A DNA stretch of 64,000 nt from Candidatus Saccharimonadota bacterium (GTDB taxonomy: Bacteria; Patescibacteriota; Saccharimonadia; Saccharimonadales; Saccharimonadaceae). The notes under the pieces are model-generated. The model was given only the letters and a program-made list of their open reading frames with translations, did no database searches and had not been told where the DNA came from. A program made the translations under genes and the position numbers. Positions 17,237 through 37,066 of the stretch are shown here, piece by piece (within the stretch, counting starts at the first letter, position 1; the number at the start of each line of letters is the position of its first letter). The stretch covers positions 62,001 to 126,000 of the forward strand of contig JAFRJX010000006.1 in assembly GCA_017432025.1 (NCBI GenBank). The letters run 5' to 3'.

Positions 17237-20200
17237 ATGGAAATTCGTTGGATAAATAAGAAGGTGCAACGACTTAAGTTGCGATGCAAATCGCTTAGTT
17301 TTCTCGTAACCTACGCTTCTTTTGTGTTTATCCTCCTTTCTATTGGTGTAGTATATCCGTTCGTGAATATTTTTAAGACAACCGATGCTTTGATAGATCT
17401 TACGGGCGATCCGTCTATTACGATGACATCGACTAAAAGCACGGCGTCAATAACAATCGACCCCTCTCTTACTGGTGTTTTTGAAACTACTTCTGGGAAC
17501 GGCGATATTGCATTTACGGTGTCGACGAATAATTATACCGGTTATGAGCTGTCGGTTCGTAGCATCAATACTACATTAGACTACAATTCCAATTCATTTT
17601 TGCCATTGGTTTCTGGAGTAACGGCGACACAATTTGCGAATGGCGGCAATACTACACTTAACAATCGTTGGGGTTATAAGCCAAATTATTACAACTCAGA
17701 GACAAATGACAAATACTATGGTTCTACCACAACATCTACTGTTCTTGATAGGACATCGGTGGCAAATACTACTGCAAAGCAATATACGATTTCACTCGGT
17801 GCAAGAGCGGATGCATCTCTGCCGATGGGCTCGTATGTAAATGATAGTTTTACTCTTGAAGCGGTGGCAAATGTGGTTCCATCTTCAATCCTGACCGTTG
17901 TATATACTACTGGGATTATTGGCGTGAGTATTGATGGGCATGCGGTTGCCGACGGTGAGACTGTTGAGTTGATTAGAGATATTCCATATGCAATTGATGT
18001 GACTTATAATTCGCCTGCCTATGCTTTCAGCTCATGGTCGGCAACCTCTGGCACACTTGGATCTGCTTCCTCTACTTCAACAACTTATACCATCGGTTAT
18101 CAGAACGCTACACTTACGGCTAATGCTCAACCAAATCAATATAATATCACCATTAAGACCGCTACCGGTATAAGCAAGGTAAGTCTTAATGGTGTAGAAT
18201 GTACAAGTACTTCTGGCTGTACGGTATCTGCTTTAACGTATGGTAGTACTTATAATTTGATTGCAACTCTTGCGACTGGTTATAGTTTTTCAGCTTGGTC
18301 AAATAGCAATGACAAAGGGTACATTGCATCAACAAGTTCCGCTTCTACTACTTATACGGTCGGGAATGGTACAACGACTCTAACGCCTTCTGCTACGGCA
18401 AATAAGTATACGATTACGCTTAACGGAAATGGTGCCACTACGGCCGGCTCTGCATCAACTACTGCTACCTATAACGCGACTACTCTAGCAGCAATTACGG
18501 TTCCGCAGAGAAAATACACTGTTTCTGGATTTACTACTACGAATAACCGAGCATCTGGCGCCACAGTTTCTTCCACTTCTACGCTTACGAGCACTTATAC
18601 ATTTAATGGTTGGTATAAAGAATCGTCAGCGACTAATCTAATTGCATCGAATGTCTCAAATCCAGTACTCCAAGCTAGTACTAGCTATACCGATTCTACT
18701 GGCCATTGGACTTCGACGTCTGTTCAAACTCTTTATGCGGGTTGGTCATCAGCCTCTGTCAAGCTCCCGACTATTTACAAGACTGATTATACTTGCGGCT
18801 GGACGACCGCTTCGTCTGGTGCCTCAAGTATTATGTATACTTCTGGCGGATATATTACACCTTCTAGCAATTTGACTCTCTATGGCGTTTGTATACCTCC
18901 GGATATGCAGGGTCTTTCTGCTTCTAAATGTACAACCACTGAGAGTGAAGTTCGCGATACTCGCGATGGTCATATTTATAAGGTTAAAAGAATGAATGAC
19001 GGTGTATGTTGGTTGACACAGAATCTCGAACTTGGTGCGACAGATCTTACTGTTGCCTTGACTTCTAGCAATTCAAATCTTGCCAGTTCGATTACGGCAG
19101 CCACCTTTAACGGTTGGAAGAAAACATCTGGTTCTAGCACATATACTGCTGGCGAATTTATACAAGTTTCTGGCAATGATGCCGTGAATGGCTCACCGTA
19201 TGGTATCCTTTACAACTTTTATGCAGCTTCGGGCGGCACTATTACTGGTTCAGCTAATACTAATGATGCGCAGTATGATATTTGTCCGGCTGGGTGGAGA
19301 TTACCGTCTGCTACGAGAAATACAGGTGAATTTGTGGACTTTGCTACTTATTACAGTACAAATACTGTGCTTCAACAATCCGTTTCTAGTGGTGGTGCCG
19401 GTATGACGCTTAGTGGTACCTTTACGAGCTCAACGCCAACTTCTAAAGACTGGTTATCGAGTTATTGGTCTTCAAGTGTGGCGGATTCGGGTTGTTTCTC
19501 TAGAAATGGTAAAATGCTTGGTTTCCAATTTACTAACAGTAGTTCAACTATCTATACTGATGCCTGTAATGATCGAGGTAGTGGTCATCTGATTCGTTGC
19601 GTGCTCGATGAGTCAAAGATTTCTGATTTGACCTATTTGCAAGATTTTGCCACGCTTTCCAACGCTGGACGAAAAGGAGTTACTAATTCTATGACGCTTG
19701 GCACGCAATATCGACTAAAGGATAGTCGCGATAATAAGGATTATTATATTGCAAAACTTGCCGATGGTAACGTTTGGATGACACAAAATCTTGACCTTGA
19801 CCTTAGCACTGGCACAACATTAACTTCGGGTAATACCGATATCACAGCCAACTGGACTCCTTCCTCAACTACTCGTACTAACTCGACCTGGACATTCACA
19901 ACTACCGCTCCACAATCCTATAACCCTGGCACGAAATATTGGAACGGCAGTACGCATAATGGTAGCGGTACGAGTACTAATTACATTGCCAATTCCGGTA
20001 CGGCACAATATCACCTCGGTAATTATTACAACTGGACGGCGGCGGTAGCCATGAATAATAGCTCTAGCTATACAACGGCCGGCGTGCTTGTCAATCAATC
20101 GATTTGTCCGGCCGGTTGGACACTTCCTCGTGGCGGTTATGGTCCATCGACTTACTATGCTTTGTCAATCCAATACTCGGGTAGTACTTGGCTTTCGCCG

Positions 20201-20419
20201 ACTTATTTAGCGCTTTCCGGTACTTGGGGTGGATCTTATGATGGTGTCGGCTATTCAGGTATGTTCTGGGCGACTGGTGCTAAAAGCGCCGATCGTGCCT
20301 ATTATGCTGATTTCTCATCGGATGGTAGTCGCAATGTAGGAACTGGTGGTTACGATCGTGATATGGGTCTTCCGGTGCGCTGTATTGCTCGCCCGGCCGC
20401 CGCTTATATCACACAATAA
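17237..20419 (+). CDS. Secreted FISUMP protein with two modules
   Basis: 1060 aa. A membrane/signal segment at about 23-45 is followed by a beta domain (about 50-215) that is nearly superimposable on the one in the 22128 protein (TVSTNNYTGY, NRWGYKPNYYNS, YTISLGARA). Next come two bacterial-repeat domains (LTVVYTTGIIGVSIDG; ITIKTATGISKVSLNGVEC) and an InlB-like repeat (ITLNGNGATTAGS to TLYAGW). FISUMP module 1, subtype I with paired Cys (CWLTQNLELG), starts at 18905. Module 2, subtype II without Cys (VWMTQNLDLDL), starts at 19618. The end is RCIARPAAAYITQ. No sorting signal. Likely a surface adhesin or host-contact protein; function is inference. Confidence 0.87.
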   Translation: MEIRWINKKVQRLKLRCKSLSFLVTYASFVFILLSIGVVYPFVNIFKTTDALIDLTGDPSITMTSTKSTASITIDPSLTGVFETTSGNGDIAFTVSTNNYTGYELSVRSINTTLDYNSNSFLPLVSGVTATQFANGGNTTLNNRWGYKPNYYNSETNDKYYGSTTTSTVLDRTSVANTTAKQYTISLGARADASLPMGSYVNDSFTLEAVANVVPSSILTVVYTTGIIGVSIDGHAVADGETVELIRDIPYAIDVTYNSPAYAFSSWSATSGTLGSASSTSTTYTIGYQNATLTANAQPNQYNITIKTATGISKVSLNGVECTSTSGCTVSALTYGSTYNLIATLATGYSFSAWSNSNDKGYIASTSSASTTYTVGNGTTTLTPSATANKYTITLNGNGATTAGSASTTATYNATTLAAITVPQRKYTVSGFTTTNNRASGATVSSTSTLTSTYTFNGWYKESSATNLIASNVSNPVLQASTSYTDSTGHWTSTSVQTLYAGWSSASVKLPTIYKTDYTCGWTTASSGASSIMYTSGGYITPSSNLTLYGVCIPPDMQGLSASKCTTTESEVRDTRDGHIYKVKRMNDGVCWLTQNLELGATDLTVALTSSNSNLASSITAATFNGWKKTSGSSTYTAGEFIQVSGNDAVNGSPYGILYNFYAASGGTITGSANTNDAQYDICPAGWRLPSATRNTGEFVDFATYYSTNTVLQQSVSSGGAGMTLSGTFTSSTPTSKDWLSSYWSSSVADSGCFSRNGKMLGFQFTNSSSTIYTDACNDRGSGHLIRCVLDESKISDLTYLQDFATLSNAGRKGVTNSMTLGTQYRLKDSRDNKDYYIAKLADGNVWMTQNLDLDLSTGTTLTSGNTDITANWTPSSTTRTNSTWTFTTTAPQSYNPGTKYWNGSTHNGSGTSTNYIANSGTAQYHLGNYYNWTAAVAMNNSSSYTTAGVLVNQSICPAGWTLPRGGYGPSTYYALSIQYSGSTWLSPTYLALSGTWGGSYDGVGYSGMFWATGAKSADRAYYADFSSDGSRNVGTGGYDRDMGLPVRCIARPAAAYITQ
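18905..20395 (+). repeat. Two consecutive FISUMP modules (I, then II)
   Basis: Within the 17237 gene. Module I runs about 18905-19611 and module II about 19618-20395. They are joined directly, with no beta-repeat between them. Shared landmarks: RDN/RDG...YxxxxLxDG, NLDLG, ICPAGWxLP, IRC. Confidence 0.75.
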
Positions 20420-20430
20420 ATAATTCCTTA

Positions 20431-20799
20431 TTATAGTGGTTTTGTGTTTGTTAACGCATCTATAAGGCAAATTGTAAATATTATGAGTGTTATGAGCTTG
20501 ATGACTAGACTTATAATTGCGGTTTTTCGTTTTTCTGTCTGTAGACCAATTATGCCGGTCACTATGGAAATAATCGCGAATAATATACCAACAGTTATAT
20601 AGTACCCAAACATAAATAGAATGAAGAATTCTTTTACCGTATAGTATGACGTTTTGTCGGGACTATTAATTTGGCTCCCTAGCGGGATTATTATTAAAGG
20701 AAATATGCTTACGATATATGGTATTAGTGCAAGAACTAGTGAGGTGGTTGCGTATTTGCTAGAATAATTCTTTAGCCCATTATTGGTATTGCCGTTCAT
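20431..20799 (-). CDS. Small polytopic membrane protein, unknown
   Basis: 122 aa with three hydrophobic segments (about 18-40, 55-80, 92-118) and a TEKRKTA loop. The general pattern (SLVLALIPYI..., ...IISIVTGIIGL) is like DUF4190-type membrane proteins, a weak match. GGAG precedes the ATG and it begins 3 bases after the upstream gene's stop, so it is the second gene of a two-gene operon. It is convergent with the FISUMP gene, with only 11 bp between stops. Confidence 0.65.
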   Translation of the reverse strand: MNGNTNNGLKNYSSKYATTSLVLALIPYIVSIFPLIIIPLGSQINSPDKTSYYTVKEFFILFMFGYYITVGILFAIISIVTGIIGLQTEKRKTAIISLVIKLITLIIFTICLIDALTNTKPL

Positions 20800-20802
20800 T
20801 TT

Positions 20803-21078
20803 TTATCTCCGAAAGATTTGTGGATATTTCTTTTCATACGATGCACTAGTGATTTTACAGAAGACTGCTACGAGTGCCATAAATAGGATAACAAAGAATG
20901 CAATAGTCATTAGAGTTCCATATTCTTTCCAGCTCTTTCCGGAATCATCGAAACTCATTAGTATCCAAACCGGAAACCATACTATTATGCCAAGTAATGA
21001 AACAATAGTAGCTATGCTCTGGATGGTATTTAACCTTTTATATAGCCTTAATACGGAACTTATAAACTGCTCATCCAT
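20803..21078 (-). CDS. Small membrane protein, unknown
   Basis: 91 aa with two hydrophobic helices (about 22-42 and 56-76) and a basic C-terminus (YEKKYPQIFRR). It is the first gene of the small minus-strand operon. The start is supported by a minus-strand TATACT exactly 6 bases upstream of the ATG, so it fits the leaderless set. No family recognised. Confidence 0.6.
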   Translation of the reverse strand: MDEQFISSVLRLYKRLNTIQSIATIVSLLGIIVWFPVWILMSFDDSGKSWKEYGTLMTIAFFVILFMALVAVFCKITSASYEKKYPQIFRR

Positions 21079-21084
21079 AGAATT

Positions 21085-21093
21085 AGTATATCA
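21085..21093 (-). promoter_or_regulatory. Extended -10, leaderless start of the 21078 minus gene
   Basis: Minus-strand TGA-TATACT, hexamer 21085-21090, 6 bases from the ATG. A second minus TATAAT lies a few bases further upstream (21093-21098) and could serve instead with a short leader. Confidence 0.45.
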
Positions 21094-21118
21094 TTATACT
21101 TTATATATTATGTTTTTT

Positions 21119-21127
21119 TGTTACAAT
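21119..21127 (+). promoter_or_regulatory. Extended -10, leaderless start of the 21134 gene
   Basis: TGT-TACAAT, hexamer 21122-21127, 6 bases before the ATG at 21134. Confidence 0.6.
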
Positions 21128-21133
21128 GAAAAT

Positions 21134-21874: not shown

Positions 21875-21898
21875 TTGTTGATAATTACTGATTGATGT

Positions 21899-21906
21899 GG
21901 TAGAAT
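21899..21906 (+). promoter_or_regulatory. -10 of tRNA-Thr(GGT)
   Basis: TAGAAT (21901-21906) preceded by TGG, 9 bases before the tRNA. Confidence 0.5.
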
Positions 21907-21915
21907 ATTTTTAAT

Positions 21916-21991
21916 GCCGCGATAGCTCAGTCGGTAGAGCGCATCCATGGTAAGGATGAGGTCACGAGTTCAAATCTCGTTCGCGGCTCCA
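21916..21991 (+). tRNA. tRNA-Thr (anticodon GGT)
   Basis: 76 nt. Acceptor GCCGCGA/TCGCGGC, anticodon stem CATCC/GGATG and loop ATGGTAA, T loop TTCAAAT, discriminator T, CCA encoded. It decodes ACC/ACU. Confidence 0.94.
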
Positions 21992-22101
21992 TTTTTATTT
22001 GATAGTTTTATTTTATTCTTTCTGCGATTAAAGGTTAGTGCATAGATTGCCCGTCTTATCATATGACATATTTAATTAATTGAGTTTATGTTTAACCTGT
22101 G

Positions 22102-22107
22102 TATAAT
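22102..22107 (+). promoter_or_regulatory. -10 of the 2492-aa FISUMP gene
   Basis: TATAAT at 22102-22107, with a leader of about 20 nt that contains AGGAG before the TTG start. Confidence 0.5.
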
Positions 22108-22127
22108 TGTATATGTAGGAGTATATT

Positions 22128-25100
22128 TTGTTGGAGACAATGTCAATTAGGAACACGCGAAAGACTAGGTTTTGTTTTCAATTGTCTATTGTTTTGTTGC
22201 TGGTTATTACGATATTAAGCATTGTTCCATATGATGCGGAAAAAGCCGATGTCGAAGCGGTAGATGATCAAACCTTACCCGCTTCATTGTCATTTATTTC
22301 CGCTAATGACCATGCAACCGTCGCAATTAACCCATCTACAGCTGGTACGTTTGGCGCTTCTTCCGGCGATTCTGATATCAGGTTTACTGTTTCTACTAAT
22401 AATTATACTGGCTATACATTGATGGTCAAAGCGACAAAAACTACTCTTGATTCCACGACTAATGATGTCATTTCCACTTTAGCATCTTCGGTGACTACTT
22501 CTCAATTTAGTAATGCATCGAATACTCCACTTAGCAATCGTTGGGGGTATAAGCCGAATTACTATAATTCATCAACTAACAGTGACAGATTCTATCCTGC
22601 TACATCGGACTCTATAATACTAGATAAAACAGTTGCAGCAAATACTAATGCAAAAGCTTACATTATCTCTCTTGGCGCAAGAGTTAATTATGAAATTCCT
22701 TCCGGAACTTATGAAAATAATACGCTTATGCTCCAATATGTAGCCAATCCGGTACCGTATACGGTTTCTTTTAATGATAATGTTATTGATGATATCGTAA
22801 ATAATATGCCGTCCAGTCTAACTGGTGACTCATCTTCGCCCGATACTGTCACTCTTCCTAATAGAATACCAACTAGGAATTATTATACGTTTGCTGGTTG
22901 GTGTACGGTTCAACCGATAGAGGTAGCGGGAGGCCAACTGTGTCCTGGGACTGTATATTCAGCGAATGGGTCGTATGGTTTGAATTATACTGTCAGTAAT
23001 TCGAATAATGTACTTTATGCGATTTGGACTTCGAATAGAGGATGCAATAAGGCTGCGACCACGATTGGAACTGGTGTTTCTTCAACCGATGCCGTATGTA
23101 TGCAAGATATGAATAACAACGTTATTTCTTCTATGATTACTAGTGCGCAACATTCTTTGGTCGACATGCGTGACGGTAAATCTTATTTCATTGCAAAACA
23201 ATCCGATGGAAAAGTATGGATGACGCAGAATCTTGATTATGTATTAAGCACTTCTAGCACCTTAACTCACCATTCTACAGATATTGGCTATACTGATGTG
23301 AATCTCGATAAGACTTTTTCTCCTAGTGCTAATACCATTACGACTGAAAGCGAGTGGTCAATGAGCGAAAACACCTTGCCTTTTTCGTATGATCCCGGCG
23401 ATATTTATTATTATTCTTCTGGCACGACCGATGATGACACGCCATCTACAGCCTGCAATGATATGAGTACATGTAAGCATTATCATGTAGGCAATTATTA
23501 CACTTGGACTGCTGCTGTTGCATCGAACGATACTTCTTCCATGGTTGATACCTATTCGATAGCGCCCGACTCGATTTGCCCAGCTAATTGGCGGCTTCCT
23601 AGTGGGACCAATAATGATACCTATAACGAATTTAACCGTTTATTGGTTAAGTCTGGTGTAGTGACTGAATATACATCTAAGACTAAAGCATTAAGTTATA
23701 CGACTAACGGTTTTACTCTTTTAAGAAGTGCGCCATTATATATTACTCGATCCGGTGCAATTTGGACTCCTGCGCTGAGCTACTCAGGCACAAATGGTTA
23801 TCTATGGAATGATACTATAACTAGTTCTACTGCGGCTGGAACTTTCAATATGAATAAGAATTATTTAAATTATAGTGCTACTCTTACGAGACGAAATGGT
23901 TTTCCTATTCGCTGTGTTGCTCGAGTGAACGCTGGATCATCCTTGATTAACTATTATGGTAATGGTGCAACCGGTGGCGTTCAAAAGAGCGTTACTATAA
24001 AGAAGGGGAATACATTGCGTTTTCCAACCGATCTTTTTACTAGGCAGAATTATATTTTATCTGGGTGGAATACTAAGGCAGATGGCACCGGGTTATATTA
24101 TGATTTTGACAGTATCTATGATGTTGAATATGATAGCCCGGCTGTCATTGATTTTTATGCAGTTTGGGTTCCGGCTTACAGTATTGTTTACAATGGGAAT
24201 GGATCATCGAATGCCTCTGCGATGGGCGTAAATAATATCGTGAAAAACGGAGACGAAACTCGTCTTTTTGCATCTAATTATAGACGAGATGGTTACGGTT
24301 TTGCTGGATGGTCCGTTACGCAAATTGATCCTGATGCAGCGAATGCGAAAAATTTGATCTCTAATGCAAAAATATTTGGTCCAAACGAGAAAATCGTTGC
24401 AAATAATGTCAATCTTGGTAGTAATGCACCTGCTAATATAACGCTATATGCAGTCTGGATTAAATCCGAAGGCGACATGCAGAACTGGGTGGGGTGTCCT
24501 TCTATGAATATAGGAGATTTGACTGCTAGAAAAGATATAAGAGACAACCAAGTATATGCCATTGCGAAACTAGCGGATGGCAAATGTTGGATGATAGAAA
24601 ATTTAAGATTAGAGACAAACGGTGCGGGCAATAAAGCTGATGCTCAAGGTTTTGATACTGGTTTTTTGGGTCTTGCCACCGCTGAACCTGAGTCGAATTT
24701 TACGTACAGTACCATTATAAGTAATTCTTTATATACTACGTCTAATATCACGGGTGAAAACCAAGCCTACAGGTTCCCTCGCTATAATAATCGTAATACT
24801 AATGATACGGTTGAAATAATGACTAGTGTGAATGAAAACATTTATTCATATGGCAATTACTATTCTTGGCCGGCCGCGAAAGCTAGTATTTACAATTTCA
24901 CTTTTAATGATTCTTTAACTACGGTGAATAGTTCAATTTGTCCTAAAGGTTGGAAACTGCCGTCTGCAAATAACTCTGGTACAGACACTAGTACATTAAT
25001 TAGTAGTTTGAGCTCTGAATCAAAAATGCTTTACCATTTCCCAAACAATATCGTCTATTCTGGTACGCTTAGTAATCGTAACTCTTCCGGAGATATTGCT

Positions 25101-28100
25101 CTACTTTGGGCTGATAATTATAATGGCGCGCAGATTTATCCGCATCATGCACACACGATTTATAGTTCAGTGACTTATAATACTGATAGCGCTAGGGAAT
25201 CATATCCTACTTATTATGGTTTGCCAGTTCGCTGTTTATCTACTAATAATGTGACGATTGCAGACGTCTCTTATCTCCAGAGTTTCAAAAACTATTCTTC
25301 CTCTGAGGTGGACTCAATTGCCGCCTCCATGTCTTATAATACGACTTACAATCTTGTTGATAATCGTGATAATAAAACATATAAGATTGCAAAACTAAAA
25401 GACGATAATATTTGGATGGTCGAAAATCTTGACCTTGGCCGTACTACGCTTACTACTAGCCTTACAAGTTTAAATACGAATCTTTCTACTACAATTTCTG
25501 CTTCAACTTTTAATAGCTGGAAGAAAACAACTGGTTCAAGAACATTTAATAATGGAGAATTTATTAATGTTGATGGCATAGACTCGTTTAATGGAGTCGC
25601 ATATGGTACGTTATATAATTATTTTGCAGCTTCTGCAGGAACAGTCTCTGGACAATCCTATGACTTAATTTATACAACTAATGATATCTGCCCAGCCGGG
25701 TGGCGACTTCCGTCCTATGGGTTTTACGCAAACTACTTAACTCTATTTAATATTTATAAGAATGAGGATAGTGCTAATTATTTTTCAAATATAAGATCTC
25801 CCGTTGCTTCCGGTGGTGCTGCACTTAATCTTTCTGGAACCTTTTATAGTAATACTCCTACTGGAATTGGTAGTACTGGTAGTTATTGGGCAGTAGGATG
25901 GAGTAGTAGTAATGCAATGCTTTGTCCAACTCTCGATACTTCCAGCACGTCTTTCTACCCGAGTTTGCAAAAGGAGCGTGACCTTGGCGCTTCAATACGC
26001 TGTGTAGCTAAACGAACACTTTATCCGCTGACAGTTAAATATGGTGAAGGCGTTGTGGATGTAAAAGTTAATGGTGTGTCAGTTCAAGATGGTGGAACAA
26101 TCAACATTGAGAAAAACACATCATATCCAATTTCTGCAACTGTTTCAGATGGCTATGCATTTTATAGGTGGTCTAAACTTGCCAAACCTGGACTCTTTAA
26201 TGATTTTCGAAGACAGTCGACAACTCTCACGATGAGCGATGAAAGAGAGGTTTTAACAGCCACTGCATTACCGAAAATGCAATTTCTTGATACAGGAGTA
26301 TGTACGTCTACTTCAAGTAAAGTGATTGATGAACGTGATAACCATGTATATACTATAAAGCGTCTTAATGATGGTCATTGCTGGATGGTGGAAGACTTAG
26401 ACCTCGGTCGTACAGCTCTTACGACAGATTTAACATCTAATAATACTAATCTTTCAGCAACGGTAACAGCTGCAACTTTTAATGGCTGGAAGAGTACGAC
26501 CGGGACAAGTTCTTATACTACTGGTGTTTTCGTTCCTCTTTCGGGTATTGATTCGGCTTCCGCTACCCCATATGGCGTCCTTTACAACTATCACGCTGCT
26601 TCTGCTGGCACAATTACAGGGAATAGCAATAGTTCTAATGCAGTTTTTGACATTTGTCCATCCGGGTGGAAACTACCAACCAGTGGAAGCGGTGGCGAAT
26701 TTCAGACTCTCTATGATTATTATAATTCGAATGCCCTTCTTATGGCTCCTATATCCCAAAATGGCGCTGCATTTGCATATAATGGATCCTTTTATAATAA
26801 TGTGCCGTCCGGGTTAGGTACAGTTGGTGGATACTGGTCTTCAACCGTAAGCAATGATTCAAATATGCATTTTATTGGCTATAATACATCGACTATTTCT
26901 CCATCCAACTCGACTTTTCGTAGTACTGGACATGGTATACGATGTATTATGAAAAACTCTACTCGTACCCTCACTATTTCGTATGGTACTGGTGTAGCAA
27001 GTGTAAAAGTTAATTCTATCAGTATTCTTAACGGCAATGCAATTGAACTCGAACCAGGCGTACCATACACTATAGAAATGACGCCGTCTGCTGGGTATGC
27101 GTTTAGTAATTGGTCTGCAACTTCTGGAACGATTGGTTCTACCACCACGCAAACGACAACTTATTCGATTGGATCAGAAAATGCTACTTTAACAGTTATC
27201 GCAGCTAGTACTGCTCCTGACATACAAAATCTTCCATCAGCGAGTTGCACCACTACTGCATCTCTTGCAAGAGATAATCGCGATGATCATATTTATACCG
27301 TTCAACGTTTAGCGGATGGTAGATGTTGGATAATGGAAAACCTTGATCTTGGTCGTACTACACTTACTGCGAACCTTACTTCTGCGAATACGAATCTCGT
27401 CTCTACAGTTTCCGCTACAACATTTAACGGCTGGAAGAAGACTTCTGGAACACAAACATACGATGCTGGTGAATTTATCAGTGTTTCTGGTTCGGACACT
27501 ACTTCTCAAACTCCGTATGGAACTCTTTATAATTACTATGCCGCATCTGCTGGCACCATTACTGGTAGCTCTAATAGTGTTAATGCATTTTACGATATTT
27601 GTCCGGCTGGCTGGAGGCTTCCAACTGGTAGTACTAACGGTGAGTTTAAAACACTTTATGATCAGTATAATTCGCTCGAACGAATTCGTGCATCGATTGC
27701 AAACAATGGAGCCGCCTTTACTTTTGCAGGCTACTTTACTAGTGGTGTTCCGGCTGGTCAGGGTAATAGCGGTGATTATTGGGCTTCTACAAGATATAAT
27801 GATACGTTGGTAGATCGTTTGGTTCTTAATACGTCCGGTGTTAACTCGACCAGTGCTGGTTATCGTAATTGTGGCAGATCGATTCGTTGCATTATGAAAC
27901 AAACGACGCGTATATTAACTGTTACATATAACACTGGTGTGGCAAGTGTAAAAGTTAATGGTATTACTGTTCAAAATGGTGGAATGATTATTCTCGAACA
28001 AGGTTTACCTTACCCTATTGAGGTAACACTGACTAGTGGATATGAATTAGCTAACTGGTCTGCAACTTCTGGAACTATTGGTTCTACAACTGCTCAAACT

Positions 28101-29606
28101 ACAACTTACAGAATTGGTTCAAATAATGCTACTCTAACCGCCACAGCAGCTTCCAGCATCCCTTTCATACAAAATTACCCGTCAGCTAGTTGTACTACTA
28201 CGGTTTCTCAAGCTAAAGACAATCGTGACGACCATGTTTATAAGATTCAACGCCTTGCCGATGGTAACTGTTGGATGATGGAAAACTTAGACTTGGGACG
28301 TACTACACTTACAACAAATCTTACCAGTTCTAACACGAATCTTTCGACTACTGTAGCTGCCTCTACTTTCAATAGTTGGAAAACTACGGCTGGTACCGAT
28401 ACGTATACTACCGGTGAGTTTATTAATGTTTCTGGTTCGGACTATACTTCTAATAATCCATATGGTACTTTGTACAATTTTTATGCTGCTTCTGCAGGAA
28501 CCATCTCAGGGGATGTTAATTACAATAATGCTTCTTATGATATTTGTCCAGCTGGTTGGCGATTACCAACTGGCGGACCGGCTGGCGAGTTTGACACCTT
28601 ATATACGCATTACAACTCTTATGCACTTATGAGGGCATCGGTGGCCAATGGTGGCGCTGCATTTGCGGCTGCTGGGCGCTTCTGGGAAGGTGCAAATTCG
28701 CTCGAAGGCTCAAATGGTTACTACTGGGCCTCGAACAGGAGTACCGATACATATATGTACGATCTGATGTTCTTTGGATACAACACTTCTATTTATCCGT
28801 TGTCCAATAATTATAGAAGTCTCGGGTTCTCAATTCGTTGTATACTAAAAGAGCCATCAAATATTTCTAAAATTTCTTATCTCCAGAGTTTTAAGAATTT
28901 ATCGGCCAGCGACAAAACATCTATAAAGAATTCGATGTCTCTTCATACCACATACAATCTTATTGATAATCGTGACAGTAAGACTTATAGAGTTGCTTTA
29001 TTAAATAATAATATTTGGATAGTAGATAATCTTGATCTCGGTCGTACCGATTTATCTGTCGATCTTACGAGTGCTAATACAAACCTTTCCACGACGGTTG
29101 CTGCTTCTACGTTTAATTCCTGGCGTACCCAACCATCAACAAATTATAACCTTACCGATGGATACTTTATGTCGCTTTCTGGATCAGACAGCACTGCAAA
29201 TGCGGCATACGGTACTTTGTATAATTACCATGCCGCCACTGCTGGAACCATTACTGGGTCTAGTAATAGCAGCAATGCTAGCTACGATATATGTCCTGCC
29301 GGTTGGAAATTGCCAAATGGAGATATTTCTTCTGGTGATTTTATTAACCTCATTAATTATGGTTATAGTAACGTTAGTATATTACGTTCAGCTGTTACGT
29401 CTGGTGGTGCCGGCTTTGCTCATTCTGGATACTTTAATATGTATTATCAGTTATATAATGTTGGGGATAGCGCTGTTTATTGGTCTTCAACTGCCTATGA
29501 TAGTGAAAGTAGAAGAAGTATAACAATTGTGCCAGGATCTAATACACTTGCTCTATATAATCAACCACGATACTTCGGCTTGTCAATTCGGTGCATCCTA
29601 AAATAA
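22128..29606 (+). CDS. Giant secreted protein with seven FISUMP modules
   Basis: 2492 aa. The start may be TTG at 22128 or 22131 (AGGAG 6-9 bases upstream) or ATG at 22140 (GGAG only 3 bases away). A signal/membrane segment (LSIVLLLVITILSIVPY) is followed by the same beta head as in the 17237 protein and an InlB-like repeat. FISUMP modules then start at about 23096 (II), 24477 (I), 25257 (II), 26277 (I), 27222 (I), 28167 (I) and 28863 (II). Two InlB-like repeats precede module 2, and single bacterial-repeat domains (LTVKYGEGVVDVKVNG type) precede modules 4, 5 and 6. It ends at IRCILK. The whole protein is Ser/Thr/Asn/Tyr-rich with few Lys, typical for exported beta proteins. No sorting signal. 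Confidence 0.85.
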   Translation: MLETMSIRNTRKTRFCFQLSIVLLLVITILSIVPYDAEKADVEAVDDQTLPASLSFISANDHATVAINPSTAGTFGASSGDSDIRFTVSTNNYTGYTLMVKATKTTLDSTTNDVISTLASSVTTSQFSNASNTPLSNRWGYKPNYYNSSTNSDRFYPATSDSIILDKTVAANTNAKAYIISLGARVNYEIPSGTYENNTLMLQYVANPVPYTVSFNDNVIDDIVNNMPSSLTGDSSSPDTVTLPNRIPTRNYYTFAGWCTVQPIEVAGGQLCPGTVYSANGSYGLNYTVSNSNNVLYAIWTSNRGCNKAATTIGTGVSSTDAVCMQDMNNNVISSMITSAQHSLVDMRDGKSYFIAKQSDGKVWMTQNLDYVLSTSSTLTHHSTDIGYTDVNLDKTFSPSANTITTESEWSMSENTLPFSYDPGDIYYYSSGTTDDDTPSTACNDMSTCKHYHVGNYYTWTAAVASNDTSSMVDTYSIAPDSICPANWRLPSGTNNDTYNEFNRLLVKSGVVTEYTSKTKALSYTTNGFTLLRSAPLYITRSGAIWTPALSYSGTNGYLWNDTITSSTAAGTFNMNKNYLNYSATLTRRNGFPIRCVARVNAGSSLINYYGNGATGGVQKSVTIKKGNTLRFPTDLFTRQNYILSGWNTKADGTGLYYDFDSIYDVEYDSPAVIDFYAVWVPAYSIVYNGNGSSNASAMGVNNIVKNGDETRLFASNYRRDGYGFAGWSVTQIDPDAANAKNLISNAKIFGPNEKIVANNVNLGSNAPANITLYAVWIKSEGDMQNWVGCPSMNIGDLTARKDIRDNQVYAIAKLADGKCWMIENLRLETNGAGNKADAQGFDTGFLGLATAEPESNFTYSTIISNSLYTTSNITGENQAYRFPRYNNRNTNDTVEIMTSVNENIYSYGNYYSWPAAKASIYNFTFNDSLTTVNSSICPKGWKLPSANNSGTDTSTLISSLSSESKMLYHFPNNIVYSGTLSNRNSSGDIALLWADNYNGAQIYPHHAHTIYSSVTYNTDSARESYPTYYGLPVRCLSTNNVTIADVSYLQSFKNYSSSEVDSIAASMSYNTTYNLVDNRDNKTYKIAKLKDDNIWMVENLDLGRTTLTTSLTSLNTNLSTTISASTFNSWKKTTGSRTFNNGEFINVDGIDSFNGVAYGTLYNYFAASAGTVSGQSYDLIYTTNDICPAGWRLPSYGFYANYLTLFNIYKNEDSANYFSNIRSPVASGGAALNLSGTFYSNTPTGIGSTGSYWAVGWSSSNAMLCPTLDTSSTSFYPSLQKERDLGASIRCVAKRTLYPLTVKYGEGVVDVKVNGVSVQDGGTINIEKNTSYPISATVSDGYAFYRWSKLAKPGLFNDFRRQSTTLTMSDEREVLTATALPKMQFLDTGVCTSTSSKVIDERDNHVYTIKRLNDGHCWMVEDLDLGRTALTTDLTSNNTNLSATVTAATFNGWKSTTGTSSYTTGVFVPLSGIDSASATPYGVLYNYHAASAGTITGNSNSSNAVFDICPSGWKLPTSGSGGEFQTLYDYYNSNALLMAPISQNGAAFAYNGSFYNNVPSGLGTVGGYWSSTVSNDSNMHFIGYNTSTISPSNSTFRSTGHGIRCIMKNSTRTLTISYGTGVASVKVNSISILNGNAIELEPGVPYTIEMTPSAGYAFSNWSATSGTIGSTTTQTTTYSIGSENATLTVIAASTAPDIQNLPSASCTTTASLARDNRDDHIYTVQRLADGRCWIMENLDLGRTTLTANLTSANTNLVSTVSATTFNGWKKTSGTQTYDAGEFISVSGSDTTSQTPYGTLYNYYAASAGTITGSSNSVNAFYDICPAGWRLPTGSTNGEFKTLYDQYNSLERIRASIANNGAAFTFAGYFTSGVPAGQGNSGDYWASTRYNDTLVDRLVLNTSGVNSTSAGYRNCGRSIRCIMKQTTRILTVTYNTGVASVKVNGITVQNGGMIILEQGLPYPIEVTLTSGYELANWSATSGTIGSTTAQTTTYRIGSNNATLTATAASSIPFIQNYPSASCTTTVSQAKDNRDDHVYKIQRLADGNCWMMENLDLGRTTLTTNLTSSNTNLSTTVAASTFNSWKTTAGTDTYTTGEFINVSGSDYTSNNPYGTLYNFYAASAGTISGDVNYNNASYDICPAGWRLPTGGPAGEFDTLYTHYNSYALMRASVANGGAAFAAAGRFWEGANSLEGSNGYYWASNRSTDTYMYDLMFFGYNTSIYPLSNNYRSLGFSIRCILKEPSNISKISYLQSFKNLSASDKTSIKNSMSLHTTYNLIDNRDSKTYRVALLNNNIWIVDNLDLGRTDLSVDLTSANTNLSTTVAASTFNSWRTQPSTNYNLTDGYFMSLSGSDSTANAAYGTLYNYHAATAGTITGSSNSSNASYDICPAGWKLPNGDISSGDFINLINYGYSNVSILRSAVTSGGAGFAHSGYFNMYYQLYNVGDSAVYWSSTAYDSESRRSITIVPGSNTLALYNQPRYFGLSIRCILK
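23096..29603 (+). repeat. Array of seven FISUMP modules with interleaved beta repeats
   Basis: Order: II, [InlB x2], I, II, [rep] I, [rep] I, [rep] I, II. Modules 4-6 and their repeats are the most alike (for example the three bacterial repeats at about 26964-27210, 27908-28150 and, earlier, 26030-26270), which suggests recent tandem duplication of a repeat+module unit of about 950 bp. Confidence 0.75.
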
Positions 29607-29650
29607 TGTAATAGTTTTTATCAGTTTTTGTTTACTAGACTTATGCTTTT

Positions 29651-29659
29651 TGGTAAAAT
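29651..29659 (+). promoter_or_regulatory. Extended -10 close to the 29669 start
   Basis: TGG-TAAAAT, hexamer 29654-29659, 9 bases before the ATG. The predicted leader is only 2-4 nt and no ribosome-binding site is seen. Confidence 0.5.
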
Positions 29660-29668
29660 ATAAGCATA

Positions 29669-32600
29669 ATGGAGTTACGTGGAAGTAAGCGTAGTAGATT
29701 CCGGATTTTTTTGCAATACATCCGGTATAATCCAGAAAGGTTTTTGACACCTTTACTAGTATTTACTACACTGTTATTTTCCATGACTCCGTCTCTTTTG
29801 CGCAAAGGCTACACTATTGATACCGGTGTAGTTTCTTCTGATGCAAACGAGTGTACTTTTACATCAACGGTTACTTCCGCACATACAAAAACCATTAGCC
29901 CTGGTACCACCCAAAGTGATATTGGTACTACTAAAGTTACAACTAAATGTACAAACTCATCGGATCACCAGGTCTATGCAATTGGTTATTCCAATGATAC
30001 CGATGGCAATACCAACCTAATTAATTCCGTAGCCAATGCGACGATTGCGACTGGCACGGCTACGAGTGGTAATGTCTCGAACTGGGCGATGAAGATTGCG
30101 AAAGACACTTCATCATATGAACCAAGCAATCTAACCATTACGAATAGCTTTGGTTCTTACCATAATGTGCCTAGCTCATCTACGCAGGTCTCTAGCTATG
30201 AAGGTGCTACAGACAGTTCCACTGGTTCTTCCATTACCACGACTTACAGAGCCAAGATCTCAGATACCCAGGTTTCTGGTAGCTACGTAGGCAAGGTGAA
30301 ATACACTTTAACTGCTACCATGATCTATGATATTACTATTAAGACGGTGACTGGCATTTCTAAGGTTACGCTTAATGGTGTGGAGTGTACGAGTACTTCT
30401 GGGTGTTTAGTATCCGGACTCACAGAAGGGGAATCATACACACTCGTAGCAACGCTTGCTACTGGTTACAATTTTGCAAGCTGGAATGCGGGAACAAACG
30501 GTTCGGTTGCTAGTACTTCCTCAGCATCCACGACTTATACGGTGGGTAGTGGCAACAGCACAATTACACCTAGTGTTACAGCCAAACAATACACCATTAC
30601 ACTTAATGGCAATGGTGCTACTACGGCTGGTTCATCTTCAACTAAAGCAACCTATGGTTCATCTACGCTTAATGCGATTACGAGACCGGTTAAGCAATAT
30701 ACGGTTTCCGGATTTACTTTGCCAGCTAGTAACAATGCAGACGGTGCAGATGTCACTAGTGCTAGTACAATTACTAGCTCTTATACATTTAGAGGTTGGT
30801 TCAAAGAATCTGCTGCTACTAATTTAATTGCATCAAATGCCGCTACCCCAGTTTTAGCATCTAGTACATCCTATACTGATGGCAATGGTAACTGGTCTTA
30901 TGATGGCACTAGAACGCTTTATGCTGGTTGGACACCACAAATGATTTCGCTGCCAAACATCACAAAACTGGGCTATGATTGCGGCTGGACCGAAACAGCA
31001 ACTAATGCCACAACTAAAGATTTCCAAACTGGCGAATCACTTACTCCAGACAGAAACTACGTTCTTTATGGTGTTTGTATTCCAATTGATTATACTGTTA
31101 CTGTGACTGCTGGTACTGGTATTAGTACACTTGCTCTTTCTGGTTGGACTGGTACTGGTACCGGTACACTTACGAAGACTTTCCGTATTGGTGATACTAT
31201 TGATCTTTCTACTTTTACTCGTAATTATTTGACAGGATTTAATGGAGCGATTTATGGTAAGTATGATAATTATGGCTCCATGAACGGTTATGTCTATACA
31301 GTTGGTGCAGGCAATGGCATCCTTGGGATTAGGGCAAGTAGTCTTGACACTCCGACCTGCACAATGCAAGGTGGTGCTACCAAAGTTTATAACCGCTCTG
31401 ATACCAACTTGATAGCGACCGATGTTTCAGACTCATACGCAAGTAATAGTGTGAATATTACCTATTCATTTGGCTATGCTTCATCGGCGAGCGGGGAATT
31501 AGTCAGCTTCAGCGAAGAACAAGAAAGTAACTATTATCCGATTCTAAAGAATGCTTTCCGCGGATCAAGGTATTATGGCGTAAAGGTTACTGTGACAAGC
31601 GTTGATGATAATTCAATTACAGCCACTTGTACTTCAGGCACCGGATCTAGCACCGGTACGACAGTTGCGAATAGGACGACTATGACATTGATTAATTCTA
31701 GGGTGCAATTAGAGGTTGGAGATGGAACTCTCAGCGGTACGCCTTATTTCTACGTTTATTATGGCGGCGCTAGTGCTAATAAGTATTCTACTAGAACCGG
31801 TACGACGTCATACACTTTGCCGACGGTTACGCCTCCGAGCGGTTATTCGTTTGATGGTTGGTATACATCGGGTGGCGATAAAGTAATGAATGCTGATTTC
31901 TCACTAACTGGCACGGCTGTTTCTAGCTGGTCTAATTCATCTAGTAAATGGGTAAAGACTGGGACGAGTGACTCGTCGACAAATGCGGCAAACATATTGT
32001 ATGCACATTACACCTTTAATGGCGCCTATCTCCAGAATCTTCCGAGCTCTTCTTGCACCACTACTGCTTCGACTGCTTACGATAATCGCGATATGCAAAC
32101 CTATACAATTCAAAGGCTTGACGACGGTAATTGTTGGATGATGGATAATCTTAATCTTGGCGCCGTAGCTCTAACGGGAGATCTTACCAGTTCTAATACG
32201 AATCTTTCAACTACTGTAACTGCATCTACCTTCAACGGTTGGTTAAAAACATCTGGTACACGAACATTTAACGATGGCGAATATATTCCTATCTCCGGCA
32301 CCGATGCAACTTCCGGAACTAAATACGGTACGCTTTATAATTATTATGCCGCATCTGCAGGTACTATTTCTACTAATCTTTACGAACACGATGCAACTTA
32401 TGATATCTGTCCAGCTGGATGGAGACTTCCTACTGGTGGCGATTATGGTGAATTCTTAACGCTTTATAATAACTATAATTCATATGCCGATATGCGTGCG
32501 TCAATTGCTAATGGCGGTGCTGCTTTTGCACTACCAGGTAGTTTTAGTAATTCTACTCCTACCGATTTAGATACCTCGGGTCTTTATTGGTCGTCGACTA

Positions 32601-35600
32601 GATTTGGCAGCTCTGATATGTATGTATTAAGAATGTCTGGTACTTATTCGTCGGTCACGCTTGGCCACTTTACGACCGCTACGAGATGGGGCGGCTATCC
32701 AATTCGTTGTATTTTGAAAAAACCAACAAGTACTTTGACGGTTTCTTATGGAACTGGGGTATCTGGTGTCACTGTTAATGGTGTAGCACTTTCTAGTGGT
32801 GACACGATTGCCTTGGAGCAGGGCGCTAGATATACGATTGATATGACTCCGACAACTAGATATGGTTTTGGTAGTTGGTCTGCTACAACAGGCACGCTCG
32901 ATTCTTCAAGCACTAAATATACGTATTATACTATGGGCTCGTCCAATGCTACGCTCAGCGTAACGGCGACGTACGTGAATACGGCGATTCAAAATCTTAG
33001 CTCTTCTTCTTGTACAACAACCCCTTCTTATGCTTATGATACCCGCGATAATCAGGTATATACTATTAAAAAGTTGAGCGATGGAAAATGTTGGATGATG
33101 GATAATTTGAATCTCGGCGCAATAACTCTCTCGACTAACCTTACAAGCTCGAACACGAATTTATCTTCGACTATCTCTGCTTCTGCATTTAATGGCTGGA
33201 AGAAAACTTCCAATACGCTGACTTATACAGATGGTGTATTTATTTCTCAAGCTGGTAACGATATTGTTTCGCGAACTGCGTATGGCACTTCTTATAATTA
33301 TTGTGCTGCTTCGGCTGGTACTATTTGTACGGATGCTAGCAGTCCCGATGCAACGGCCGATCTTTGTCCGGCTGGCTGGAGGATGCCTTCGAGTTATTCG
33401 AGTGGTAGCGATTATGTCACTCTCCTAAATAATTATAGTACTATGGCGCTTGTCACTGGACCTGTCGCGGGCGGTGGCGCCGCATTTACCCGTTCTGGCG
33501 GACTTGGTGTGTCGAATTATTATTATAATACTTCGAATACGGCTTGGGGCTCTACGATGGCGAGTACTGGCAATCAATATGCGTCTGGGCTCGATATTGG
33601 AAGTGCTAATACCGGGACATTGTCGGCCACTACTGGGCATGGTCGAAATGGTGTAGGCACATTACGCTGTGTGCTGAAGAGTATTACCATTAATAATCTG
33701 ACATTCCTGCAAGACTTTAAGGACCTTTCCGATGCAGAAAAGAATTCTGTGCTCCAGTCAATGTCTTACGGCGTAAATTATACTCTTATTGATAATCGTG
33801 ATAATAAATCTTATAAAGTAGCTAAATTGCAAGATAATAATATCTGGATGGCTGAAAACCTGGATCTTGGTAGGACGACGCTTTCTACTAATCTTACGAA
33901 TGATAATACAAATATTTCTTCTACCGTAACTGCTTCCACCTTTAATGGCTGGAAGAAAACTTCTGCTGCTGGAACTTATACCGCAGGTGAATTTATTAAT
34001 GTTTCTGGAACCGATTCTACTTCTGGTACTGCATATGGCACTCTATATAATTTCTATGCTGCTTCGGGCGGTACTGTTTCGGGTACTTCTTATAGTATTT
34101 CTTCAATGTATGATATTTGCCCGGCTGGTTGGAGATTGCCGTCTGGTGGTAAATATGGTGAGTTCCCAGTTTTGAATGTGTATTACAACTCTAGTTCTCT
34201 TATGAGAACACCAATTACAAGTAGTGGAGCCGCCTTTAACTTAGCTGGTTATTTTTACAATAGCACTCCTACTAGTCAGGGTGGTAGTGGATACTTTTGG
34301 ACATCTACAAGGTATAGTAATACAAATATGTATAATTTAAATCTTAATTCGTCGTCTGTTTATCCTTCGTCTGTTACTGGATACCGGAATTACGGCCATG
34401 CCATTCGATGTATTGTTAAAAGACCTTCGAGTTCACTAACTGTCACATATGGCACTGGTATTTCTAGTGTGAAAATCAATGGTGTTACTGTGCAGAACGG
34501 TGCCGTGCTTGAACTTGAACTGGGCTATGCTTATACCATTGAAGCGACTACTTCTTCTGGATATAGTTTTTCAAATTGGTCAACCACTTATGGTACGATT
34601 GGATATACTAGCGATCGAATTACTACTTTTGGGGTTGGCTTTACTACTGATACGCTTACCGCTTCTGCACACCAAATGGTTTATATGCAAGATATCACAA
34701 AATCACAATGTCAGACTATGACTGCTAGCGGTCCTGCCACAGTATACGATAGTCGTGACAATAGACCATATAAAATAAATTATTTGGCTGATGGAAATTG
34801 CTGGATGTTGGACAACCTTGGCCTTGGTAGTTCATACACGACGTCTCTTACGAGTTCTAATACAAATATTACCGGATCGTATACTCTTCCGGCTTCTACT
34901 ACTACGATTAACTCTTATACTACAGCACAAATTTATTCTGCCTATAAGGATACTACTACTACTACATATGGTTCGGGTACTGGTCGTATGGGGGTATTCT
35001 ATAATTATTGCGCACTTTCGGCTGGTACTGTTTGCTCTAGCTCTAATTCAAGTAATGCTACACAAGATATCTGTCCTAAGGGTTGGCATTTGCCAACCGG
35101 CAATAGTTCGGGCCAATACCAAGCTCTTCGTACTGCTACTGGTAGTGCTAGTGCATTTAATACTGCCTTGTCCGTTACGTTGTCTGGTGTTTACAGAGAA
35201 TCGTCGCTTTCATCATATGGTTCGGCTGTTTTCTATTACTCTTTGTCTGTTTATGATTCAACTAGTATGTATGGTCCATATATTACGGGTAGTTCAGCTG
35301 TAGATGTGCTAAATTATACGACTAGAAACAGTGGTTGGAGCGCACGGTGCGTTAAGACGAGTGATAGCACGACTCCAACTAGCGTCTCCGTTACGGTTTA
35401 TTATGGCACTGGTGTTTCAAGCATCAGAGTTAACAATACGACCGTGTCGAATGGCGGTTCTATTTCGCTTACACCGGGGTCTTCATATTCTATTACAATG
35501 ACGCCGTCGACTAACTATACGTTTAGTAATTGGTATGCGTCTACTGGCTCGGTTACTTCAACTTACTCACAAACAACGTACTATACGCCTACTACAAGTA

Positions 35601-37066
35601 ATGCTACTCTCATTGCCTATGCTTCATTCTCCGGTACTTATATGCAAAATCTTTCGTCTTCATCTTGCACGACTACTGCTTCAACTGTTTATGACAATCG
35701 TGACGGCCAAGCATACACTATTAAGCGCCTAAATGACGGCAGATGTTGGATGATGAGTAATCTTAACCTTGGCGCAACAACTCTTTCTACAAACTTAACA
35801 AGCAGTAATACTAATATTGCGAGTACAGTTGCTTATTCGACATTTAATGGTTGGAAAAAGACTTCTGGTACGGCTACTTATACTGCTGGTGAGTTTATTT
35901 CGGTGTCTGGTTCAGATGCTACTTCGGGAAATGCATATGGCACTCTTTACAATTATTGTGCAGCCACAGCTGGCACTATATGCTCAAGCACAAATAGTGG
36001 CGATGCGGCTTATGATATTTGCCCGGCCGGCTGGAGAATGCCGACTGGTAGTACCGCGGGCGAACTATATAAACTATATACATATTATCCATCATTGTCC
36101 AGTATGCGAGCTTCGGCTTCGAGTGGTGGTGCTGCTTTTGCCCTAGCTGGATACTTTACAAGTGGCGCAGCTACTGGTGCTGGTACTTATGGCTACTATT
36201 GGTCTAGTACTAGATGGGATGATACTACGATGTATCAATTGTTCCTTAATTCGACTGATACCGTAACGCCGGCTGGTGGCGGTTATCGTATGGCTGGGTT
36301 CCCAGTGCGTTGTATACTGGATGAAACTGCTACAATTCCTGGCTATACTTATATGCAAGATTTCTATAATATCTCTTCTTCTGCTAAGGCTTCTGTGCTC
36401 AATTCGATGTCGTTAAATACAACCTATACACTTATTGATAACCGTGATAATAAAAAATATCAGGTCGCAAAACTTAGGGACGGTAAAATTTGGATGGCGG
36501 AAAACTTGGATCTTGGTCGCACTACCCTATCCGTAAATCTCACGAGCTCAAATACGAATCTTGCTAATACTATTACTGCTTCAACATTTAATTCATGGAA
36601 GAAAACTACTGGTTCGCAAAGCTTTGTGTCTGCTGATTTCATTCCAGTTTCTGGTTCTGATGCTACGTCTGGGAATAATTATGCTACACTTTATAATTAT
36701 TGTGCTGCTACGGCCGGTACGATTTGTACGAGTTCGAATAGCTACAATGCTTCGTATGATCTTTGTCCGGCTGGATGGAGGATGCCGACTGGTGGTCCAT
36801 CTGGAGAATTTCAGACAATCTATTCGTACTATAACTCGGTCTCATCGTTGCGTAGTCCTATCACCAGTGGCGGTTTTGCGTTCACGCTTTCTGGTTATTT
36901 CTCAAATAGCGGACCAGCGTATCAGGGTGGGAGTGGTTCATTATGGTCTCAAACCAGGGGTGACAATATTGACACACTTAACTTTGATGTTAATGGGTCT
37001 AGCGTATATACATATGTTAATGTCCAACGTCAAAGCGGCGAATCGGTACGTTGTGTTGTAAAATAA
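29669..37066 (+). CDS. Giant secreted protein with six FISUMP modules
   Basis: 2465 aa. After a basic start and a membrane/signal segment (FLTPLLVFTTLLFSMTPSLL) comes a beta head like that of the 7517 protein (CTFTSTVTSAHTKTI, VYAIGYSNDTDG, SGSYVGKVKYTL). It is followed by a bacterial repeat, an InlB-like repeat and a larger unique beta region (about 480-760, with DTPTCTMQGGATKVYNRSD). Six FISUMP modules begin at about 32030 (I), 32987 (I), 33689 (II), 34685 (I), 35642 (I) and 36340 (II). Bacterial repeats precede modules 2, 4 and 5. The order I-I-II occurs twice. The protein ends with RCVVK and no anchor. Confidence 0.86.
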   Translation: MELRGSKRSRFRIFLQYIRYNPERFLTPLLVFTTLLFSMTPSLLRKGYTIDTGVVSSDANECTFTSTVTSAHTKTISPGTTQSDIGTTKVTTKCTNSSDHQVYAIGYSNDTDGNTNLINSVANATIATGTATSGNVSNWAMKIAKDTSSYEPSNLTITNSFGSYHNVPSSSTQVSSYEGATDSSTGSSITTTYRAKISDTQVSGSYVGKVKYTLTATMIYDITIKTVTGISKVTLNGVECTSTSGCLVSGLTEGESYTLVATLATGYNFASWNAGTNGSVASTSSASTTYTVGSGNSTITPSVTAKQYTITLNGNGATTAGSSSTKATYGSSTLNAITRPVKQYTVSGFTLPASNNADGADVTSASTITSSYTFRGWFKESAATNLIASNAATPVLASSTSYTDGNGNWSYDGTRTLYAGWTPQMISLPNITKLGYDCGWTETATNATTKDFQTGESLTPDRNYVLYGVCIPIDYTVTVTAGTGISTLALSGWTGTGTGTLTKTFRIGDTIDLSTFTRNYLTGFNGAIYGKYDNYGSMNGYVYTVGAGNGILGIRASSLDTPTCTMQGGATKVYNRSDTNLIATDVSDSYASNSVNITYSFGYASSASGELVSFSEEQESNYYPILKNAFRGSRYYGVKVTVTSVDDNSITATCTSGTGSSTGTTVANRTTMTLINSRVQLEVGDGTLSGTPYFYVYYGGASANKYSTRTGTTSYTLPTVTPPSGYSFDGWYTSGGDKVMNADFSLTGTAVSSWSNSSSKWVKTGTSDSSTNAANILYAHYTFNGAYLQNLPSSSCTTTASTAYDNRDMQTYTIQRLDDGNCWMMDNLNLGAVALTGDLTSSNTNLSTTVTASTFNGWLKTSGTRTFNDGEYIPISGTDATSGTKYGTLYNYYAASAGTISTNLYEHDATYDICPAGWRLPTGGDYGEFLTLYNNYNSYADMRASIANGGAAFALPGSFSNSTPTDLDTSGLYWSSTRFGSSDMYVLRMSGTYSSVTLGHFTTATRWGGYPIRCILKKPTSTLTVSYGTGVSGVTVNGVALSSGDTIALEQGARYTIDMTPTTRYGFGSWSATTGTLDSSSTKYTYYTMGSSNATLSVTATYVNTAIQNLSSSSCTTTPSYAYDTRDNQVYTIKKLSDGKCWMMDNLNLGAITLSTNLTSSNTNLSSTISASAFNGWKKTSNTLTYTDGVFISQAGNDIVSRTAYGTSYNYCAASAGTICTDASSPDATADLCPAGWRMPSSYSSGSDYVTLLNNYSTMALVTGPVAGGGAAFTRSGGLGVSNYYYNTSNTAWGSTMASTGNQYASGLDIGSANTGTLSATTGHGRNGVGTLRCVLKSITINNLTFLQDFKDLSDAEKNSVLQSMSYGVNYTLIDNRDNKSYKVAKLQDNNIWMAENLDLGRTTLSTNLTNDNTNISSTVTASTFNGWKKTSAAGTYTAGEFINVSGTDSTSGTAYGTLYNFYAASGGTVSGTSYSISSMYDICPAGWRLPSGGKYGEFPVLNVYYNSSSLMRTPITSSGAAFNLAGYFYNSTPTSQGGSGYFWTSTRYSNTNMYNLNLNSSSVYPSSVTGYRNYGHAIRCIVKRPSSSLTVTYGTGISSVKINGVTVQNGAVLELELGYAYTIEATTSSGYSFSNWSTTYGTIGYTSDRITTFGVGFTTDTLTASAHQMVYMQDITKSQCQTMTASGPATVYDSRDNRPYKINYLADGNCWMLDNLGLGSSYTTSLTSSNTNITGSYTLPASTTTINSYTTAQIYSAYKDTTTTTYGSGTGRMGVFYNYCALSAGTVCSSSNSSNATQDICPKGWHLPTGNSSGQYQALRTATGSASAFNTALSVTLSGVYRESSLSSYGSAVFYYSLSVYDSTSMYGPYITGSSAVDVLNYTTRNSGWSARCVKTSDSTTPTSVSVTVYYGTGVSSIRVNNTTVSNGGSISLTPGSSYSITMTPSTNYTFSNWYASTGSVTSTYSQTTYYTPTTSNATLIAYASFSGTYMQNLSSSSCTTTASTVYDNRDGQAYTIKRLNDGRCWMMSNLNLGATTLSTNLTSSNTNIASTVAYSTFNGWKKTSGTATYTAGEFISVSGSDATSGNAYGTLYNYCAATAGTICSSTNSGDAAYDICPAGWRMPTGSTAGELYKLYTYYPSLSSMRASASSGGAAFALAGYFTSGAATGAGTYGYYWSSTRWDDTTMYQLFLNSTDTVTPAGGGYRMAGFPVRCILDETATIPGYTYMQDFYNISSSAKASVLNSMSLNTTYTLIDNRDNKKYQVAKLRDGKIWMAENLDLGRTTLSVNLTSSNTNLANTITASTFNSWKKTTGSQSFVSADFIPVSGSDATSGNNYATLYNYCAATAGTICTSSNSYNASYDLCPAGWRMPTGGPSGEFQTIYSYYNSVSSLRSPITSGGFAFTLSGYFSNSGPAYQGGSGSLWSQTRGDNIDTLNFDVNGSSVYTYVNVQRQSGESVRCVVK
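32030..37063 (+). repeat. Array of six FISUMP modules, I-I-II twice
   Basis: Modules at about 32030-32719 (I), 32987-33682 (I), 33689-34422 (II), 34685-35356 (I), 35642-36320 (I), 36340-37063 (II). Bacterial repeats lie between successive I modules and before the first I of the second half; none lies between I and II. Confidence 0.75.

Follow-up and report, generated by a model that had tools for sequence, protein, structure and literature searches.

FISUMP genes of the window

We begin by considering three long FISUMP genes in the window, by which we mean the whole 64,000-nucleotide stretch of a Candidatus Saccharimonadota genome that was analysed. The genes and their motifs lie where a first-pass annotation of the DNA had put them. 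Their proteins exceed the curated cut-offs of TIGR02145 and PF09603, which places them in the FISUMP (Fib_succ_major) family, and each has a hydrophobic segment at its start. A module is called type I when it has both a Cys in its lead and a Cys before W-M, type II when it has neither, and N when it has an opener lead. In the features below, "=" marks a direct join and "~" a beta repeat; type I and type II modules come from the module parse and InlB-like or beta-repeat spacers from the repeat profile, with other or further evidence given in brackets.

17237..20419, +, FISUMP gene 1, 1060 aa: N-terminal hydrophobic segment, beta repeats, I=II (profile matches, module parse)
18866..19609, +, gene 1 type I module, lead Cys CTTT, CWLTQNL
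19631..20392, +, gene 1 type II module, direct join; core in the second core group, with openers (also core tree)
22128..29606, +, FISUMP gene 2, 2492 aa: N~~I=II~I~I~I=II (module parse)
23025..23924, +, gene 2 opener (N) module: lead with its own Cys pair (CNKAATTIG...AVCMQDM...SM), VWMTQNL
23925..24437, +, gene 2 spacer region, Listeria-Bacteroides repeats (profile matches)
24438..25244, +, gene 2 type I module, Listeria-Bacteroides-repeat variant (MQNWVGC, CWMIENL)
25269..26012, +, gene 2 type II module, direct
26013..26246, +, gene 2 InlB-like beta-repeat spacer
26247..26954, +, gene 2 type I module (CTSTSSKVIDERD, CWMVEDL)
26955..27182, +, gene 2 InlB-like spacer, 76 aa
27183..27899, +, gene 2 type I module
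27900..28127, +, gene 2 InlB-like spacer, 76 aa
28128..28850, +, gene 2 type I module
28875..29603, +, gene 2 terminal type II module (also ortholog comparison)
29669..37066, +, FISUMP gene 3, 2465 aa: long N-terminal beta region, then I~I=II~I~I=II (module parse)
31991..32719, +, gene 3 type I module
32720..32947, +, gene 3 InlB-like spacer
32948..33679, +, gene 3 type I module
33701..34420, +, gene 3 type II module, direct
34421..34654, +, gene 3 beta-repeat spacer
34655..35359, +, gene 3 divergent type I module (CQTMTASGP, CWMLDNL)
35360..35602, +, gene 3 beta-repeat spacer
35603..36322, +, gene 3 type I module, modelled with the terminal type II module (also structure model)
36347..37063, +, gene 3 terminal type II module, two-helix lead as modelled (also structure model)
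8111..8827, +, single, related type I module closing the 7388-8830 gene

That last gene belongs to a row on one strand (4753-8830) made of a CotH-kinase-family gene, a GH25 lysozyme-family gene, a small unknown and the single-module FISUMP gene. Upstream of the three long genes, positions 12814-16518 hold an ORF of 1234 aa without a Pfam match.

The source genome (859 kb in 8 contigs, 97% complete) contains 71 TIGR02145 matches in about ten long genes, which take up a visible share of its 0.86 Mb. By protein comparison its nearest relatives are Saccharibacteria genomes, of which many come from the ruminant gut (roe deer, sheep, goat, buffalo). Among the relatives searched, FISUMP is present in 34 of the 35 same-genus genomes and absent from all 24 genera that belong to other families of the order. 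In a sample of 380 genomes spread evenly over the phylum, the expansion is essentially limited to this genus, and the other genomes have 0-3 matches each.

The order of modules

The module profiles from the window were applied to 99 loci (this genome, same-genus relatives and 78 named loci) and the fetched stretches were parsed. This gives 297 domains, and the 281 with both motifs readable are the modules counted here. The front end of an internal module depends on what precedes it: a Cys pair after a spacer, and a Cys-less helical lead after a direct join. Internal type I modules are found 79 times behind a spacer and once in a direct join (n = 80), while internal type II modules are found 80 times in a direct join and 6 times behind a spacer (n = 86). 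The beta-repeat profile matches 78 of the 79 spacers before type I and none of the 80 direct type II joins; in this genome such a join leaves 6-11 residues between the end of the preceding module and the start of the next. The transitions between modules are I~I 56, I=II 50, II=II 24, II~I 13 and I=I 0.

The first-pass annotation had proposed that type II directly follows a type I module and that nearly every type I follows a repeat. Within the window the split is perfect among the 12 non-first modules (5/5 type II direct, 7/7 type I behind a spacer; Fisher p = 0.0013), and it persists in the source genome outside the window (II 13 direct and 1 behind a spacer, I 0 and 19; p = 2e-8). In other genomes the rule holds far beyond chance (II 60 direct and 5 behind a spacer, I 1 and 52; p = 2e-26), and the proposal has thus passed its main test. 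When only one module is kept per cluster (single-linkage, 60% core identity), 40 type I modules are behind a spacer and 1 is direct, against 6 and 45 for type II (p = 4e-18). The motif IWMxENL, offered as the mark of type II, is slightly too narrow, for the window also has VWMTQNL and IWIVDNL. The lone direct Cys module (L116 m3) is placed after a type II, and the six internal Cys-less modules behind a spacer are L026 m2, L033 m1 and m2, L037, L038 (mostly WWM/YWM forms) and L031 m3. No published linkage-dependent lead or grammar of this kind was found in the literature searched, most subscription journals lying outside that search.

The type of a module is unconstrained at the first position of a protein. 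Since 20 modules with a type II lead open their protein or are its sole module, a preceding FISUMP module is not required. The first module of the 22128 gene had been singled out as an exception to the order, rightly so: it has the opener, a third and recurrent type of lead, which carries its own Cys pair (CNxxATTIGT...AVCMQDM) and is found at 23025-23924 of the window and in L025, L028, L022, L050 and L095. The opener module mostly comes first in its protein, behind a Listeria-Bacteroides-type repeat; in L138, from a second genus of the same family, it is directly followed by a Cys-less module.

Other leads were also observed. Relatives from sheep jejunum (L052, L054, L057) have a shorter direct lead of 24-25 residues (TMQxFTxxxAxxMATxETKTL), and their short-lead Cys-less modules stand in rows of up to three; this lead may be another way to join modules directly. 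At L025:310-6891 and L069:7508-12655, one normal type I module is followed by very degenerate ones (CYMAENL, LWMTDNL).

Leads and cores

The difference between types I and II consists of a lead of ~45 residues plus one residue. The PF09603 model covers residues 46-238 of the 240-residue module and starts at the CWM motif, and most of the lead that carries the position rule is therefore outside the known domain. PF09603 itself is matched by all 15 of the type II modules (15/15).

Are the two types two families? The first-pass annotation expected separate profiles to tell them apart, and this expectation stands for the leads and fails for the cores. Lead profiles trained on this genome sort the modules of other genomes by class with 98% correct and an AUC of 0.999, a success that is partly circular because the type label is set by the lead. 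With linkage as the label, the same training and testing gives 87% correct and an AUC of 0.99. Core profiles reach only 65% correct and an AUC of 0.88 for class in other genomes' modules, and an AUC of 0.86 for linkage. In a tree built from the cores only, type II modules fall into two core groups, one that also contains type I modules and one that contains openers. A starred branch parts the two groups (support within them is low), and the starred branches of the tree force at least three changes between I and II. Two ancient FISUMP subfamilies, I and II, are thus rejected, as the core tree mixes both and the core profiles separate them poorly. Since the lead profiles transfer while the cores do not part cleanly, the "subtypes" are best described as linkage-dependent front ends on shared cores.

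The cysteine pair

Among the 281 modules, the lead Cys and the CWM Cys are both present in 156, both absent in 118, and mixed in 7 (156/5/2/118). In about 11 of 12 phylogenetically independent contrasts the two Cys are gained or lost jointly, and opposite changes practically do not occur (p = 0.001). Types I and II both retain the other two cysteines, that of CPAGW and that of the final RC. Such coupled gain and loss is what a disulfide would give, and the lead Cys and the CWM Cys most likely form one. Both Cys are visible in 8 of the 9 readable single FISUMP proteins from other Patescibacteria, so that type I looks canonical and type II derived; judged from these sequences, the Cys pair is probably the older state.

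It may be asked whether the order rule reflects pure descent, with I=II and spacer-I units copied as blocks from a few ancestral cassettes and a lead that has no structural meaning. The genes are long modular paralogs with cassette-like repeats, class is clustered on the core tree more than in shuffles, and independent contrasts of lead against linkage reach only p = 0.06 (4.6 of 6 in the expected direction and 0 against, from few pairs). However, the rule persists among the 60% identity clusters, type II leads sit on two core groups split by a starred branch, the two Cys have changed together independently about 11 times, and the sheep-jejunum clade follows the same rule with a different lead and 24-25-residue direct linkers. 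We consider descent by itself an unlikely account.

Predicted structure

An AlphaFold2 model of the I-II pair at the end of gene 3 has a pLDDT of 94 and a pTM of 0.70, which is moderate for a fixed orientation. The type II lead is predicted to form two helices, 249-253 and 257-266 (pLDDT 85-93). As we estimate a pTM of 0.5-0.6 for two equal domains of unknown orientation, the model leans toward a preferred I-II arrangement. A larger spacer-I-spacer-I-II model has a pLDDT of 89 and a pTM of 0.51, and compared with the PDB this five-domain model has mostly repeat-type matches.

Both module types are predicted to have a C-type-lectin fold: of the 47 chains that the structure search listed, nearly all are C-type-lectin-like, with every Z below 8. 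The top match is the C-terminal domain of Legionella Lcl (Z 7.5, 3.4 A over 112 residues), whose family Lcl_C (PF07603) is additionally matched by 4 of the 15 type II modules; intimin is among the matches (Z 4.2), and among viral proteins the closest match is a phage protein that carries the annotation FISUMP. Sequence search gave no relatives with a solved structure.

The end of the chain

The three window proteins end with type II, as the first-pass annotation had read them, the 17237 protein with a tail of 8 residues. Among complete multi-module proteins the terminal module is type II in 46 of 54 (10,000 shuffles: mean 25.5, maximum 39). This tendency is borne out in this genome as a whole (9/10) and in the named loci (34/37), and reaches only 3/7 in a small set of other genus members fetched by TIGR02145. 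Because a type II query was used to fetch the named loci, terminal type II could be overrepresented among them, although the scan patterns are core motifs common to both types. The protein ends a median of 1 residue past its last module and within 11 residues in 53 of 62 proteins, which leaves no space for an anchor at the C-terminus. The likely anchor is the hydrophobic segment at the N-terminus, which would make the C-terminus the far end.

The architecture had been read as a stalk of repeat-I units with a type II cap, and a dedicated cap would be the sole ligand binder. This reading fits the enrichment of type II at the end, a level that no shuffle reaches, and the divergence of some terminal modules. 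The 22128 gene is 89% identical to its L061 ortholog; the terminal type II modules of the two share 64% identity and the other modules 85-96%; in L020/L042 the last type II is again the most divergent module, and L051/L053 points the same way. It is, however, too narrow: II=II tandems and internal type II modules are common, 20 type II leads stand at the first or only position, terminal type II is the minority in the small sample of other genus members, the terminal module is not faster in L025/L095 and L025/L069, and type I modules share the predicted lectin fold. We find the dedicated cap very improbable.

Comparison with known systems

The window proteins resemble the FISUMP proteins of Fibrobacteres in high copy number and surface location. 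Most Fibrobacteres have 17-119 copies, with a suggested role in attachment (PMC4704652). A cohesin-like or matrix scaffold for attachment to fibre, the role suggested for Fibrobacter FISUMP, with no function as a receptor for host bacteria, would agree with that high copy number and cohesin-analogue suggestion and with the many relatives from ruminant gut. The predicted fold, however, is lectin-like, and we regard such a scaffold as distinctly unlikely. A literature search on adhesins of rumen Saccharibacteria gave no match.

Intimin and invasin, with an Ig-like stalk and a C-terminal C-type-lectin domain, share with the present proteins a beta-domain stalk and a lectin-like module at the far end. 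Here, however, the lectin-like modules are repeated and interleaved with the stalk, and Saccharibacteria are monoderm. Fibrillar adhesins also have repeated stalk and adhesive domains, a similar plan for which the term "domain grammar" is already in use (PMC8286594); the present rule differs in that it ties linkage to both a Cys pair and the type of lead within one domain family.

FISUMP also occurs among the variable proteins and targets of diversity-generating retroelements (DGRs) (PMC4159848). Lcl and the DGR variable proteins have a single C-terminal domain, whereas up to ten modules are found per chain here. DGR diversification of the FISUMP genes is rejected in the loci read, as the template of the lone RVT_1 gene matches only its own phage-like target. 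That phage-like DGR (L118:323-433 and L118:1021-1131; G000 contig C6 near 85 kb) has a 339-aa reverse transcriptase. Its template repeat and variable repeat are each 111 nt long and differ at 13 positions, 11 of which are adenines in the template; the target is a neighbouring ORF of 137 aa that is not FISUMP.

Proposed model and its meaning

We propose, with a probability of roughly 0.6, that these proteins are N-anchored fibrillar adhesins whose modules would either be held by a disulfide staple after a flexible spacer or dock through a helical lead onto the module before them. Stalk-type repeats and the N-terminal hydrophobic segment are present in the window proteins, and adhesion itself is a proposal. 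An epibiotic Saccharibacterium would carry N-terminally anchored fibres of many FISUMP modules of the C-type-lectin fold. Behind a beta-repeat spacer, a bond between the lead Cys and the CWM Cys would staple the N-terminal extension to the core. At a direct join, where both Cys are gone, the two-helix lead, ending in a mostly conserved Ser-Met, would pack at the junction and give a stiff module pair or row. A module emerging from a flexible repeat would need a local staple, while one starting on another module would be stabilised by packing there; the opener lead, with its own Cys pair, would be a third front end. The repeats would give reach, and the direct joins would make stiff ends with several lectins. 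The C-terminal end, in most cases type II, would point away from the cell and probably bind surface glycans, either of host bacteria or of plant fibre.

Partner recognition by uncultured Saccharibacteria is largely unknown (PMC12206443). A sequence rule that predicts stapled and docked modules would give clear constructs for structure and binding work, and it illustrates how one lectin-fold domain can adapt to different kinds of neighbour. More tentatively, and with the odds against it, this may be a lectin-fold family with a switchable N-terminal adaptor that encodes the place of a module in the chain, stapled or docked. Adaptor and core would evolve separately, so that modules could be re-ordered and re-fitted, and fast-evolving terminal lectins might set the partner specificity of the epibiont.
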